24,924 nucleotides of DNA from a virus, in the IMG/VR virus record IMGVR_UViG_3300042556_000915, positions 1-24,924 of that record. One strand, given 5' to 3'. Every line of letters begins with the position of its first letter. The first letter of the stretch is position 1. Positions 10,445 to 15,470 of the stretch are shown here, piece after piece. The notes beneath the pieces are model-generated. The model was given only the letters and a program-made list of their open reading frames with translations. It was not told the origin of the DNA and searched no databases. A program made the position numbers and the translations under genes.

Positions 10445-12196
10445 CTATCCTCCTAGTTGCGCTAGGATTGCCGCTATATCTGGTGGAGGAGTTGCCCCAG
10501 CAGGAGCAGCCTCACCTGGAGCACCCATCTGTTCTTGTGGGATTTCTTCTACAGGGGCACCTGGCTCAACCGCTGGGGACATCTGTGGTTGCTCTACTAC
10601 TTCAGGGGCCTCTAGTTCTTCTTTCTTGAAGATACCAAGCACTGCGTCTTCCACAGTAGTGCCCTTCTTGCGAGCATCAATAACTTTAGCAATTTTTTCT
10701 ACTAAGTCAGATGGGTCTTGTCCTTGAGTAGCCATTGCAGGTATTGCTTGAGTCATGGCACTAATTGCACCATTTAAGTTATCACGTAATCTTTCTATGT
10801 CAACTTGTTGTGTTTCTAAACCAACATTCATTGACCAAGGAAGTTCACGCATAACAAAGTCTTTAGATACTAAGCCAGCCTGTAATGCCTGTAGTGAAAA
10901 TATAAGTGCCCTAGATGGGTCTAGTCCAGACATCAAACCATAACGTACCTGTACGTGATAGTCGCTTTTGATGTCCTTGCCAGGCTTGTAGGTAATTTCA
11001 TATGGCGCACCTTGGTGCGTACCACGAACTGTCTTTTCATCATCGAAGAGTTTCTCATCCATCTTAAGACATAGAGAAAGAACATCTTCAAACGTGTCAG
11101 ACAAAACTTGTTGTCCTGTTTTGATTTGAGTATCAAAGCCACCCATAAGAGCCTGTACGCCTTGACCAGTGATTACACTTGCGTCAATGCTTCCTGTACG
11201 GCCTTCTGGATAACGTGAGCCAAGACGAATCTCACGCTCCAAAATATTTTGCTCAGTAAATGCAGCGGTAGGTAAATCTAATCCTACTCGTCTAATTAGG
11301 TCAGGGCGTTGCGAACGAATGATTGCATCTGGGCCGAAAGCAAATTCGTCAACATCATCTGGCAAAGCCAGAGGTGCCTGGACACTACGCTCTGCTGCTT
11401 GCATTGCAAGAGTGGCGAACTGTGCACGGGCTAGTTGCACCCAAAGTACATCATCGAATTGACCACGTGGTTCTTCATCTATGCCTGGTCTACGAGCAAT
11501 ACGTACTGTTAAATCACCAATTGGATTCTCAGTACGCTGAAGAACTAGATTCTTTCGAGAAGGCAAGAACAAAATAATTTGGTCTTTATCCTCATAGCGA
11601 ATCATTTCTAGTATTGCATTTAAGTCAGCAAATTCTCTTTGTCCACCCATAATCTTTGATTCGTATTCTGGGAAGTCAATGACTAATTCACCAACTGTTT
11701 TCATGTAGCGTTTCGCGTATGACACGCACCGTCCGTAGCGGTCAAATTCTGGGTAAGCACCCAAAGGGCTTTCTACTCGGATGCGAGGCAATCGCTCATC
11801 ATAATCTGGTTCTACAACAATTGGTAAGAAACCAAATGTGATGTACCAGTCTGCTCCCGTATACATTTGAGTCTGTAAACGGGAAGTCTGTACTATGTTG
11901 TTGACAATCATTGTGCGCTTGTCAGCAAAGTTGCGAGCACGGTCTTTAGTCGTATCGCTTGGAACACAGTTAAAGGAAGGCAGCGGTGCTAGAACTTCAG
12001 ATACGTCTCTAGCAGCAACATCAATGAAGTTAGCAATCATTGGCTTGGACATACCCTCTGGGAAGTAATCACCAAATAGGCTAGTCATTTCGCCACGGCG
12101 AACTTGTAGCACATCACCCATACGGGTATCACGTGCAGCGTAGCGTCTCTTGAGGTTCTCTACCTTGTTCGCTACTTCATTTATGCTTAAAACCAT
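10445..12196 (-). CDS. Portal protein
   Basis: The 583-aa product has the size and features of tailed-phage portal proteins, the dodecameric ring through which DNA enters and leaves the head. Visible signs are an N-terminal helical region (ANKVENLKRRYAARDTRMGDVLQVRRGEM), the segment IANFIDVAARDVSEVLAPLPSF, the wing-like domain with YPEFDRYGR, and a long helical C-terminal region with ERLRDNLNGAISAMTQAIPAM. The last 60 residues are Pro/Glu/Ala-rich and probably disordered. It follows the terminase by 9 bp and precedes the HslV-like gene by 1 bp. Assignment rests on overall pattern and the terminase-portal-protease order. Confidence 0.85.
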   Translation of the reverse strand: MVLSINEVANKVENLKRRYAARDTRMGDVLQVRRGEMTSLFGDYFPEGMSKPMIANFIDVAARDVSEVLAPLPSFNCVPSDTTKDRARNFADKRTMIVNNIVQTSRLQTQMYTGADWYITFGFLPIVVEPDYDERLPRIRVESPLGAYPEFDRYGRCVSYAKRYMKTVGELVIDFPEYESKIMGGQREFADLNAILEMIRYEDKDQIILFLPSRKNLVLQRTENPIGDLTVRIARRPGIDEEPRGQFDDVLWVQLARAQFATLAMQAAERSVQAPLALPDDVDEFAFGPDAIIRSQRPDLIRRVGLDLPTAAFTEQNILEREIRLGSRYPEGRTGSIDASVITGQGVQALMGGFDTQIKTGQQVLSDTFEDVLSLCLKMDEKLFDDEKTVRGTHQGAPYEITYKPGKDIKSDYHVQVRYGLMSGLDPSRALIFSLQALQAGLVSKDFVMRELPWSMNVGLETQQVDIERLRDNLNGAISAMTQAIPAMATQGQDPSDLVEKIAKVIDARKKGTTVEDAVLGIFKKEELEAPEVVEQPQMSPAVEPGAPVEEIPQEQMGAPGEAAPAGATPPPDIAAILAQLGG

Positions 12197-12205
12197 TATT
12201 CGCCT

Positions 12206-14065
12206 TTACATATAGATGACATTGGGCTGATACTTCATCTCGTCAAGGTTGACTATGGACTGAGATTCGTATGCTTGCCGTGTACTCCAACGGTCACCTG
12301 TGTGATAAGACCGCTGTTGATTCTTCTTCATTATTTCTTTGGCACGTATCTCGCAAAACCATAGTGCCATAACTAAGTCGGTTGGCCCCTTTGTGTCGGG
12401 TGACCAAGTAATTAACTGATTTACTAAAGCCTTGAAGTGCTCATTGTCAGCAGCAGGAAGTTCAATCAAATTATTTTTTTGATGCTTGCCATTGTTAACA
12501 GTACCAAACAGGTCTGACATGGCAGCCACACCAAAGCCAGTGTCCCACTTATTGTTACCAGTAAACTGGCCTGAGAACTTAACACCCTTAACTGCTAGGA
12601 ACTGACGGAAGTCCTCATCTAAAGCGTAGGCTTTCTGATGAGCGTTAGTTTCAATCCTAACCTCTGCTGGTTGATACATGTCAATCCAGCGAGAAATCAA
12701 ATCTCTAATCTTGCCAGGTGTTGGGTCTTTCATGTTGTAAGCATCTAGCACGTATCGCTTACCAGTCATCCTGTCAATGCTGTACATAATCGCTGCGGTC
12801 TTACCTGCCATAGCAGGGTCAAGACCCATGATGGTGTAGAACTGGCCTTCTTGCTTGAGAGGCCCAGCCTTACGCATACGATTGATAGAAGCATTAACTG
12901 ACACTAATGGGAAGATTGCATCAGACTCAACATCTTGTTGCTGATACACCATAGCCCAAGTGTTAGGGGTTACTTCAGACCTGCGCTGGAATAGCGTTGG
13001 TCCATCCCATTTAGGGTAGTCCCCATTCTCATCTGGTTCTGTATCTGGCTCACCATCCCAAGGACGGTCAGACTTAGGCCAGAGCGTAACCCAATCCTGC
13101 GGTTTATCTGTAATCTCCAGAACCGCTGGCATTGCTAAGTATGTGAAGGGAGACTGCCCACCTTGCCAATGTTCGGGTTGGCGGATTTCACGATAGAGGT
13201 CGTTAGACGAAATTCGTGTTCCAACTATTAGAAGTTTACCATTCTTACCAAGACGGGTAATGACTTCCTTCTGTAGCCAGTCAAGTTGCTTAGCCCATTC
13301 ATGGGCATTGCTGGTAACTACAACGTCATCAAGAATAATTAAATCCGCACGTGCACCGTAGATTTGGCCACCTATACCGATAGCCTCAACTGTTGGGTCC
13401 TTTTGGTCCGAGTCACGGGCTTCAGTGCCTAGGTAGATGCTGTTGGCTTTCCATTGGTCAGCATCTTGTTTCCATCCACCTGCAGGTCCGAAGGTAGCCT
13501 GTAACTTCGCCCAGCGGGGATGTGCTAATCGCTGCTTAATTGAGTAAAGGAACTTAGCAGCAGAATTCTGTGTTTTAGAAACAATCATAATCCTAGTGTT
13601 TGGGTCTTTACAAATTCTGTAGACACAATAGTTGATTGTGATTGTGGTTGACTTTGCGTGCTCAGGGGGCACGTTTACTAGAAGCCTATTTGGGCTGGCT
13701 TGCTGGAAGACCATGTTGGGGTGTAGCCAGGAAGGTTGCTTGCCCTCAAGAATATCTACCCAGTTGCGCTGATGGGGGTAAACTTTCATGTTGAGGAACT
13801 CTTCTGAGAAGTCCTCGAACTCTATAGTAGAGGTTGAGTGAGCACCACGCTCACGGGCTTTCTCGTAAACCGAGCGAGCATCCCTCTCACGGTCACTGAA
13901 GGCTTTGTCTCTGGCTCGCCAGGTATAGACCGTTTGAAGTTTTACCCCAGCAGCCTTGGCTGCGTCTGATACACCTACACCATTGCTGATGAGTGCTAGG
14001 TAAGCCTCTTGGTTCTTCTTCTGCTTCTGGGCAAAGTGATGGTTGTCTCCACTACCTGCTGCCAT
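12206..14065 (-). CDS. terL: Terminase large subunit (ATPase-nuclease), with N-terminal helix-turn-helix
   Basis: The 619-aa motor protein pumps DNA into the prohead and cuts it. The ATPase part shows a Walker A variant PPEHAKST (residues 133-140), Walker B LIILDD (242-247) and a coupling motif VGTR (about 281-284). The RNase H-like nuclease shows GLDPAM with Asp416, IETNAHQK with Glu472 and DLVMALWF with Asp563 as likely metal ligands. Residues 20-55 (ISNGVGVSDAAKAAGVKLQTVYTWR) look like a helix-turn-helix usually found in the small subunit. No separate small terminase gene is visible beside it. The start ATG at 14065 has AAGGAC about 10 nt upstream. It is the first gene of the leftward operon. 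Confidence 0.95.
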   Translation of the reverse strand: MAAGSGDNHHFAQKQKKNQEAYLALISNGVGVSDAAKAAGVKLQTVYTWRARDKAFSDRERDARSVYEKARERGAHSTSTIEFEDFSEEFLNMKVYPHQRNWVDILEGKQPSWLHPNMVFQQASPNRLLVNVPPEHAKSTTITINYCVYRICKDPNTRIMIVSKTQNSAAKFLYSIKQRLAHPRWAKLQATFGPAGGWKQDADQWKANSIYLGTEARDSDQKDPTVEAIGIGGQIYGARADLIILDDVVVTSNAHEWAKQLDWLQKEVITRLGKNGKLLIVGTRISSNDLYREIRQPEHWQGGQSPFTYLAMPAVLEITDKPQDWVTLWPKSDRPWDGEPDTEPDENGDYPKWDGPTLFQRRSEVTPNTWAMVYQQQDVESDAIFPLVSVNASINRMRKAGPLKQEGQFYTIMGLDPAMAGKTAAIMYSIDRMTGKRYVLDAYNMKDPTPGKIRDLISRWIDMYQPAEVRIETNAHQKAYALDEDFRQFLAVKGVKFSGQFTGNNKWDTGFGVAAMSDLFGTVNNGKHQKNNLIELPAADNEHFKALVNQLITWSPDTKGPTDLVMALWFCEIRAKEIMKKNQQRSYHTGDRWSTRQAYESQSIVNLDEMKYQPNVIYM

Positions 14066-14095
14066 ATTGTCAAAGTCCTTATCAAGTATATATTA

Positions 14096-14215
14096 GGCTC
14101 GCGCAAGCGAGCCATATTGATTATATGCCAGGCACCAAGCCTGGCTAATACGCCAGCCTCAGGGCTGGCTATATATTATTTATCCTCTACTTATATTAAC
14201 CCCGTCTAAAACGGG
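14096..14215. repeat. Array of four GC-rich hairpins upstream of terL
   Basis: Four separate hairpins lie in AT-rich sequence. The first has arms GGCTCGC/GCGAGCC with a GCAA (GNRA-type) loop at 14096-14113. The second has GCCAGGC/GCCTGGC with a 5-nt loop at 14127-14145. The third has GCCAGCC/GGCTGGC with a 4-nt loop at 14152-14169. The fourth has CCCGT/ACGGG with a 5-nt loop at 14201-14215. They fall in the 5' leader expected for the late transcript. None is followed by a clean T-run on either strand, so simple terminators are unlikely. They may stabilise or attenuate the late message, or shape DNA at the divergent control region. Confidence 0.6.
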
Positions 14216-14258
14216 TACCGAACATATAGTTTTCTGAGAATTTTTTTAAGGTTACATA

Positions 14259-14279
14259 ATACCTGATGAATATAGGTAT
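14259..14279. promoter_or_regulatory. Operator-like inverted repeat
   Basis: Arms ATACCT and AGGTAT are separated by a 9-nt AT-rich spacer between the hairpin array and the G-tracts. Size and spacing resemble a repressor operator for a dimeric helix-turn-helix protein, but no cognate repressor is visible in the window. It could control the leftward late promoter, which I could not place with confidence. Confidence 0.3.
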
Positions 14280-14282
14280 GGT

Positions 14283-14365
14283 GGGGGGAAATAACTATGA
14301 AAAATATTTAAGGTGAGTAGAGGGGGTAGGGGGGGGTGTGCGAATTAAGCATAGGGGGGTCCCCC
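14283..14365 (+). other. G-tract cluster with quadruplex potential
   Basis: Runs of six, five, eight and six G occur at 14283-14288, 14322-14326, 14329-14336 and 14354-14359. The last run is directly followed by T and five C (14361-14365), forming a short inverted repeat. On the plus strand four G-tracts in about 77 nt could fold into a G-quadruplex, although two of the loops are long. It borders the DnaA-box cluster. Nothing else in the window has comparable G-runs apart from one terminator stem at 19686. Confidence 0.45.
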
Positions 14366-14366
14366 T

Positions 14367-14563
14367 TTATCCACAGGTTATCCACACCTGTGTGTATCTT
14401 GTGAATAACTATTACATTTTTTTGCATTGTTACATCAAATACATGTAATAAAGTTAAATATCCGAATGCTGTCTATTCAGTAACCATTCTCAAGACCCCT
14501 AACCCTGTGGATAACTTGTGGATTATTGTTCACCTGTTGTTCACCTATTGTTCACGTGTTCAA
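14367..14563. other. Candidate replication origin: DnaA boxes plus 11-bp iterons
   Basis: Perfect DnaA boxes TTATCCACA occur at 14367-14375 and 14378-14386 (plus orientation, 11 bp apart). The variant TTATTCACA is at 14400-14408 (minus). A perfect box at 14506-14514 and a near-perfect one (TAATCCACA) at 14517-14525 are both minus, again 11 bp apart. Three direct repeats TTGTTCAC[C/G]T follow at 14526, 14537 and 14548, exactly 11 bp apart. The 14409-14465 segment between box groups is strongly AT-rich and could be the unwinding element; it includes ATTACAT/ATGTAAT inverted copies. Consensus TTATNCACA is established for bacterial DnaA. Use of host DnaA by this phage is inferred from box number, phasing and position. 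Confidence 0.68.
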
Positions 14564-14564
14564 T

Positions 14565-14593
14565 TTGAAATGGGGGAATTAAAGTTCGATAAT
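14565..14593 (+). promoter_or_regulatory. Rightward early promoter (sigma-70 type)
   Basis: TTGAAA at 14565-14570 and GATAAT at 14588-14593 are separated by 17 bp, close to the bacterial vegetative consensus. A transcript starting near 14600 would carry a leader of about 210 nt before the SprT-like gene and read the whole rightward module. It lies directly after the iterons, so initiator binding there could repress or activate early transcription. Confidence 0.55.
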
Positions 14594-14625
14594 ACTCTCA
14601 TAACTAAATTGCACTAAAAGTACCA

Positions 14626-14785
14626 AGCAGGAGACGGGGCCGAATCCTCTCGCACTTGGCAACTAGAGACCCAAGCAATACGCCGAAAAGGCAATAACTA
14701 AACAGGGGGAAACATCCGAGTGAATCGGGGACATCGTGCCCCGTTTCGCTTGATGTCTTAAGGCCTTAAGTCTTACGGCGTCAAG
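14626..14785 (+). ncRNA. Structured 5' leader of the early operon
   Basis: Several short complementary stretches are visible. CCAAG (near 14628) can pair with CTTGG (near 14657), GCC-GAAAA-GGC forms a small hairpin near 14681, and CGGGG/CCCCG flank an 8-nt loop near 14726. A stem CTTGATG/CGTCAAG at 14749-14785 encloses the perfect palindrome CTTAAGGCCTTAAG. The last is the first member of the CTTAAG leader family described further downstream. Segments GGGGGAAAC and GAGTGAATC vaguely recall conserved stretches of the ydaO-type c-di-AMP riboswitch, but the 3' conserved GTCAGCTAACC block is not present as such. I therefore call it only a structured leader. It ends at the start-associated AAAGGATGA (14798-14806). 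Confidence 0.45.
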
Positions 14786-14810
14786 TGATACCAATCGAAA
14801 GGATGACCAA

Positions 14811-15470
14811 ATGAAAACAGCAACACTCGCCCCAATAGTAGGGGCCTTAAGTGAGGCATACGCCACAATCCAACAGCGCGAAGGCTTACCGCCTGCCGTA
14901 GTGATTGTGAAGCGAGACCCTAGGGCATGGGGACACTTCACGCCCTCCAAATTGTGGAGCGCGAAAGATGGCGAGAAACTTCACGAAATTATGATAAGCG
15001 GTGAGAATCTCGCACGCGGTGCCCGCGCCGTTCTAGGGACCCTGCTACATGAGGGGGCACATGCGAAGAATCACGCCGAGGATGTAAGAGGGACCGACAC
15101 TAATGGCCGACATAATAAGAAATTCAAGGCACAGGCGGAGGCCTTCGGCCTCACAATAACCGAGAATAAAAACGGCTGGAGTGAAACCGAGGTGAGCGAC
15201 CAGTGCGCCGAGAGGTGGGCCGATGTTCTCGACCTAATCGAACAGGGCATAACAATCTACGCCCAAGGGATGGCAACAGTTAAGACCAAGGGAACAAGCG
15301 GAGGGACCGAGGGAGGCGAAGAGGGAGGCGAAGACACGCCGAAACCAAGAAACAAGAACAACCTCAAAGCAACCTGCAAATGTGAGAACATAATCCGACT
15401 AAGCCAAAAGGTCTTAGAAATCGGGGTGACTTGCAAGAAATGCGGAGAAGATTACAAAGCCACCGAGTAA
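14811..15470 (+). CDS. SprT-like zinc metalloprotease with C-terminal zinc ribbon
   Basis: The 219-aa product contains the metalloprotease motif HEGAH (residues 80-84) within LGTLLHEGAHAKNH, with a downstream GRHNKKF that may supply the third metal ligand. The C-terminus has a CKC...CKKC zinc ribbon (Cys189, 191, 208, 211). A Gly/Glu-rich linker (GTSGGTEGGEEGGED) joins the two. This is the SprT/Spartan-like layout; family members cut DNA-bound proteins, and the phage substrate is unknown. It is the first rightward gene, behind the early promoter and the start-associated AAAGGATGA sequence. By hand count its first 120 nt after 14820 are about 56% G+C against about 42% in sampled late-gene lines, which hints at separate ancestry. 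Confidence 0.75.
   Translation: MKTATLAPIVGALSEAYATIQQREGLPPAVVIVKRDPRAWGHFTPSKLWSAKDGEKLHEIMISGENLARGARAVLGTLLHEGAHAKNHAEDVRGTDTNGRHNKKFKAQAEAFGLTITENKNGWSETEVSDQCAERWADVLDLIEQGITIYAQGMATVKTKGTSGGTEGGEEGGEDTPKPRNKNNLKATCKCENIIRLSQKVLEIGVTCKKCGEDYKATE

Follow-up and report, generated by a model that had tools for sequence, protein, structure and literature searches.

The region at 14367-14593 of the window (the whole 24,924-bp stretch analyzed, a linear fragment of a freshwater tailed phage from an IMG/VR record) is probably an early promoter that senses the host, driven by an activator of the PhoP/RegX3 type and modulated by DnaA. It would control the rightward early operon and would consist of sites for master regulators of the host. 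Tandem subunits of a host response regulator of the OmpR/PhoB family would bind at 14528-14560; this regulator is most likely PhoP or RegX3, which act in phosphate starvation. Once bound, it would bring RNA polymerase to the promoter at 14565-14593. Host DnaA would bind at 14506-14525 and at a left group of boxes at 14367-14408, modulating the promoter and perhaps also opening the AT-rich core. The early genes would then be expressed according to the phosphate and replication state of the host.

The gene for the terminase large subunit (12206-14065, minus strand) heads a leftward operon that also contains the portal and head genes. The first sizeable early gene, counting ORFs of at least 100 aa, lies at 14811-15470 on the plus strand and belongs to phrog_6361, with a weak likeness to SprT. 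The rightward operon also encodes WhiB, an exonuclease, a DnaB-type helicase, a primase and a metallophosphoesterase. A search of viral_contigs with the 219-aa ORF gave no close relatives. Two terminator-like hairpins, each of 7 pairs with 6 G-C, are located at 14096-14169, between the divergent promoters and upstream of the terminase gene. In the leader of about 200 nt from the early promoter to the first sizeable early gene, AAACATCCGAG (14709-14724) and the adjacent bases are common to the window, L005-L007 and L329. This motif is possibly an RNA element. Rfam and tRNA searches gave no matches.

The original prediction described three TTGTTCAC repeats with an exact 11-bp spacing. These were confirmed, and the copies start at 14526, 14537 and 14548. 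The same prediction took them for weak DnaA boxes belonging to an eight-site array, and this part was not sustained. A DnaA box requires C and then A at the places where the repeat units have positions 6 and 7. The base after the TTGTTCAC copies is C, C and G, not the A of a DnaA box, and the window copies end with CACC, CACC and CACG, whereas a DnaA box has CACA at positions 6-9 of the 9-mer. We then considered the unforced copies, that is, the units next to the searched pair, in other phages (n = 42; a few are from arrays inside coding sequence). These units read GTTCAYC followed by a looser TNNN, and some read GTTAACC. Position 6 was C in 31, T in nine and G in two units; position 7 was C in 37, T in four, G in one and A in none. 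On the variation at positions 6-7, the eight-site DnaA array was rejected. Given the GTTCAYC variation and the fixed distance to the promoter, an activator array of the PHO type fits instead.

The three units on the plus strand are GTTCACCTGTT (14528-14538), GTTCACCTATT (14539-14549) and GTTCACGTGTT (14550-14560). They are 11-nt tandem direct repeats, lie at a fixed position upstream of a promoter, and match the heptamer GTTCACC, a reference core from S. coelicolor, at 7/7, 7/7 and 6/7 positions. Their starts (14528, 14539 and 14550) are the only such 11-bp pair positions in the window, and none of 2000 dinucleotide shuffles of the intergenic region contained three GTTCAYC units spaced 11 bp apart. 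For scoring, we used the PhoP 11-mer consensus G(G/T)TCAYYYR(G/C)G, which Sola-Landa reportedly described in 2005. A PHO box is built of direct repeats of 11 nt, in which seven positions are conserved and the other four less so, and GTTCACC is the PHO core in S. coelicolor (PMC4415409, PMC6283541). As in the Streptomyces PHO boxes of phoRP-phoU in S. filipinensis (PMC6283541), the units are 11 nt long, carry GTTCACC and occur as two to several copies. Unlike those boxes, the present array precedes a phage early promoter, is fused to DnaA boxes, has a linker (TRTT) that is not G+C-rich, and is a predicted binding site. The repeats look like an actinobacterial PHO-like array rather than weak DnaA boxes.

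A promoter-like sequence, TTGAAA-17-GATAAT, is present at 14565-14593 on the plus strand in front of the rightward early operon. The end of unit 3 is 4 nt from the -35 element and 27 nt from the start of the -10 element. In the S. filipinensis phoU promoter, the last PHO unit is also 4 nt from the -35 (PMC6283541). Since the promoter scan alone was not above the chance level (three found vs 2.1 expected), the spacing and not the scan counts as evidence. Of 48 array sites, 14 had a -35/-10 pair (3.0 expected), and a -35 gap of 4-5 modulo 11 occurred in eight, with one array counted twice (0.5 expected). Among 46 sites, TANNNT was located at a distance of 27, 28, 38 or 39 nt from the end of the array 30 times (4.2 expected; at most 15 in any of 2000 mononucleotide shuffles); because these offsets were picked after the histogram was seen, the shuffles were mononucleotide and some of the phages are related, the spacing figures are indications and not exact probabilities. 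The ORF-overlapping arrays L272, L277, L280, L283 and L317 were excluded from the promoter statistics. In the terminase-family control regions with an array, the array was oriented toward the early operon in all cases (19/19). Near the promoters of many array phages (for example L227, L230, L258, L262, L294 and L314), a motif CGACACGCCG / CGGCGTGTCG was observed, and a promoter type TTGTCAG-N9..11-TANNNT is common among them.

Another regulator of the same fold that binds 11-nt direct repeats, such as MtrA, AfsR/SARP or a phage-encoded protein, is an unlikely occupant of the array. MtrA half-sites share the 11-nt period and AfsR and PhoP sites overlap in the literature, and the GTTAACC reading of some units also speaks for such a protein. 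However, the MtrA consensus [GT]T[GA]ACC-N5-GT[GT]AC has three mismatches in the array, the SARP repeats of the literature end 8 bp from the -10 whereas the distance here is at least 27 nt, and the core GTTCACC is that of PhoP. PhoP or RegX3 is the predicted regulator, and activation is the predicted direction of its effect.

The array recurs in other phages. TTGTTCAYCTNNTGTTCAYCT at 11-bp spacing was detected in 74 IMG/VR stretches, compared with three at the 16-bp control spacing. The right half in the window is TGTGGATAACTTGTGGATTATTGTTCACCTGTTGTTCACCTATTGTTCACG, and a composite much like it was found in L038 and L040 (terminase identity 56-57%) and in L227 and L230, in which none of nine window proteins tested had a match. 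Of 52 non-redundant arrays, 26 have a DnaA-type box within -60 to +40; most such boxes lie on the opposite strand at -9 and -20/-21, and others at -33, -43 and -54. The array sites were gathered by pattern search, and phage relatives and pattern-selected sites are non-independent samples. The 59 matches to TGTGRATTNTTGTTCAYCT were not used as evidence, since some of them look like chance or coding matches. Judging from these sites, DnaA boxes and PHO-like repeats are paired in several phages that otherwise differ. The search of cultured phages and plasmids for the cassette gave short partial matches only. The partial match in Arthrobacter phage PrincessTrina was rejected, as it lies inside a gene and is without the repeat array. 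The phrog_6361 gene is also found downstream of the arrays in L276, L298, L315 and L329. No pstS-type binding protein (PF12849) was found in the 43 array records, which suggests that the sites act on the early genes of the phage itself and not on a phosphate-uptake gene.

A rival reading is a packaging site, in which the terminase would recognize the repeats and the neighboring G-rich block at the genome ends. The contigs of several relatives start 330-400 bp upstream of the terminase gene. Three of them from different samples (L011, L014 and L044) start 345 bp upstream with near-identical first bases, and in FlowerPower terminal repeats of 253 bp occur at this junction. L005-L007 and L329 also keep the G-rich block at about 14315-14365. 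Nevertheless, arrays were found at the fixed promoter distance in phages without a match to the window terminase, and we regard a packaging role of the repeats as highly improbable. The starts of L011, L014 and L044 resemble a physical genome end. The G-rich block itself (GAGGGGGTAGGGGGGGGTGTGCGAATTAAGCATAGGGGGG) adjoins the left DnaA group; it is possibly a packaging or cos site, and may be one separate from the repeats.

Five DnaA-type boxes lie in the divergent control region. The left group consists of TTATCCACA at 14367-14375 and 14378-14386 (both plus strand) and TTATTCACA at 14400-14408 (minus strand). A hairpin with a 7-bp stem (14372-14392) has the 14378 box in its loop. The right group, on the minus strand, consists of TTATCCACA at 14506-14514 and a DnaA-like box at 14517-14525, TAATCCACA, which has one mismatch and abuts the repeat array. 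The five sequences within 160 bp and the two pairs at 11 bp (14367/14378 and 14506/14517) agree with the original prediction. Of the five TTATNCACA sequences that it listed, four are exact and the fifth is TAATCCACA, with one mismatch. The 24.9-kb window has no exact TTATNCACA besides these four, all of which fall within the cluster at 14367-14525. Compared with TTATCCACA, three boxes are exact and two have one mismatch. When the intergenic region (14066-14810) was dinucleotide-shuffled 2000 times, no shuffle reached five boxes (mean 0.27) or three exact boxes. TTATCCACA pairs at 11 bp were present in at least 120 IMG/VR stretches (L085 on) vs 27 at 16 bp, which indicates that helical phasing of DnaA boxes is general in viral genomes. 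The TTATCCACA sites appear to be true boxes for host DnaA, and their occupancy by DnaA is predicted.

Box clusters were found at the same place, upstream of the terminase gene, in L005-L007, L026, L028, L040, L057 and L082; L079 has a weaker cluster. The window and L005-L007 (85% relatives) have exactly the same block TCCACAGGTTATCCACACCTGTGTGTATCTTGTG, so that the left block is kept, and the right half has drifted. Within the left group, L005-L007 have TTTTCCACA at the 14367 box and an identical 14378 box, and L005 has TTATCCACA at the 14400 box. The register of the 14506 box is kept in L038, L040, L227, L230 and others. In L329, a 13-kb fragment with 84% terminase identity, the box cluster is absent from the region. 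Its control region has six repeat units, and three LexA-type boxes are present at 11080-11177 (CGAAC-N4-GTTCG, with a mismatch in one of them). Since LexA-type boxes stand in place of DnaA boxes in L329, the operator content turns over fast among close relatives. LexA/SOS-type boxes were also observed in the control regions of L005-L007 (about 406 nt upstream of the terminase gene), L079, L260, L301 and L304. Many more distant terminase relatives have no arrays, DnaA boxes or LexA-type boxes.

These comparisons concern the idea that the boxes are a decoy that sequesters host DnaA and slows host replication. Up to nine boxes are present in L026/L028, as a decoy would favor. On the other hand, the window has few boxes, they stand in a fixed register to the promoter array instead of being freely placed, and the close relative L329 has none. 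A titrating decoy is very unlikely.

A phage origin driven by host DnaA, in which DnaA binds the inverted box groups and melts the AT-rich core and the phage helicase and primase are loaded, is a tentative reading. It does not conflict with a PHO-type array at the repeats. The core at 14395-14469, between the opposing box groups, is real: it has 77-78% AT in 60-bp windows, and the 78% at 14395-14454 is reached by only 0.2% of window positions. Thus, two inverted box groups flank a very AT-rich stretch, and clusters occur at the same place in several relatives. As originally noted, no obvious initiator was seen in the window; the search of the window for the DnaA-type C-terminal domain (PF08299) gave no match, although the window is a fragment and an initiator could lie outside it. 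The cumulative GC skew of the window has its minimum at 13390, about 1 kb from the cluster, and minima near the cluster were also found in G001, G005, G006 and G008. However, ct2KA10 and FlowerPower have skew minima near the same junction without box clusters, and the skew tracks gene orientation, by which it is confounded as proof of an origin. FlowerPower also has the same helicase-primase set and no boxes. The missing cluster in L329 speaks against an indispensable role of the boxes in the lineage, although L329 is a 13-kb fragment. The tandem TTATCCACA near an AT-rich stretch resemble bacterial oriC and its basal unwinding system (PMC8287927). Unlike in oriC, the cluster is missing from a close relative. 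Origin function at 14367-14593 is possible.

The host of the window phage is likely actinobacterial, because, among annotated phages, the closest ones are Streptomyces phages of the FlowerPower/Manuel type (terminase identity about 42%). WhiB is present in 17 of the 43 array records, which also indicates actinobacterial hosts; by hand count, it occurs in 13 of the 17 array records longer than 30 kb. In a mixed control set, which contains at least one real cassette, the count was 7/39. A terminase search of genome_contigs was uninformative for the host, as its sole match, a beta-proteobacterial MAG contig (L084), was probably mis-binned. No host context was found in L280 (65% G+C) or L362 (a 350-kb contig).

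Host regulators acting on phage genes are known from other systems. In the cyanophages S-PM2d and P-SSM2, genes are under host PhoBR control, although binding to the Pho boxes predicted in a cyanophage was not reliable and such sites may fail binding tests (PMC10976474). The predicted switch resembles these phages in placing phage genes under the host phosphate regulator. In the cyanophages, scattered genes (for example pstS, DNA polymerase and mazG) are controlled, whereas here the array is at the start of the early operon; moreover, the array records lack a pstS-type gene, the host phylum differs and DnaA boxes are attached. At the lambda origin, transcription is stimulated by host DnaA (work cited in PMC3985674), and host DnaA is here likewise proposed to act on phage transcription near a possible origin. 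Lambda has an O-protein origin with weak boxes, in contrast to the consensus boxes beside a PHO-like array.

With slightly less than even confidence, we propose that several freshwater actinophage lineages share a standard early-promoter cassette, in which sites for the host phosphate regulator and DnaA stand side by side in a fixed helical register. Through this cassette, early transcription, and perhaps replication, would be timed by the phosphate and replication state of the host, and in some members LexA-type boxes would stand beside the DnaA boxes or in their place. What distinguishes these sites from those of the cyanophages is the multi-unit array before the early operon, in otherwise different genomes and joined to DnaA boxes. 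The analysis also puts right what is probably a misinterpretation when such repeats are taken for DnaA boxes. A portable signature for such switches is TGTGGATAAC-YTGTGGATTR-TTGTTCAYCT-NN-TGTTCAYCT, and the viral stretches with 11-bp TTATCCACA pairs are a broad set worth a systematic survey. If the predicted switch is confirmed, the nutrient status of the host would act on infection at the early-gene switch.
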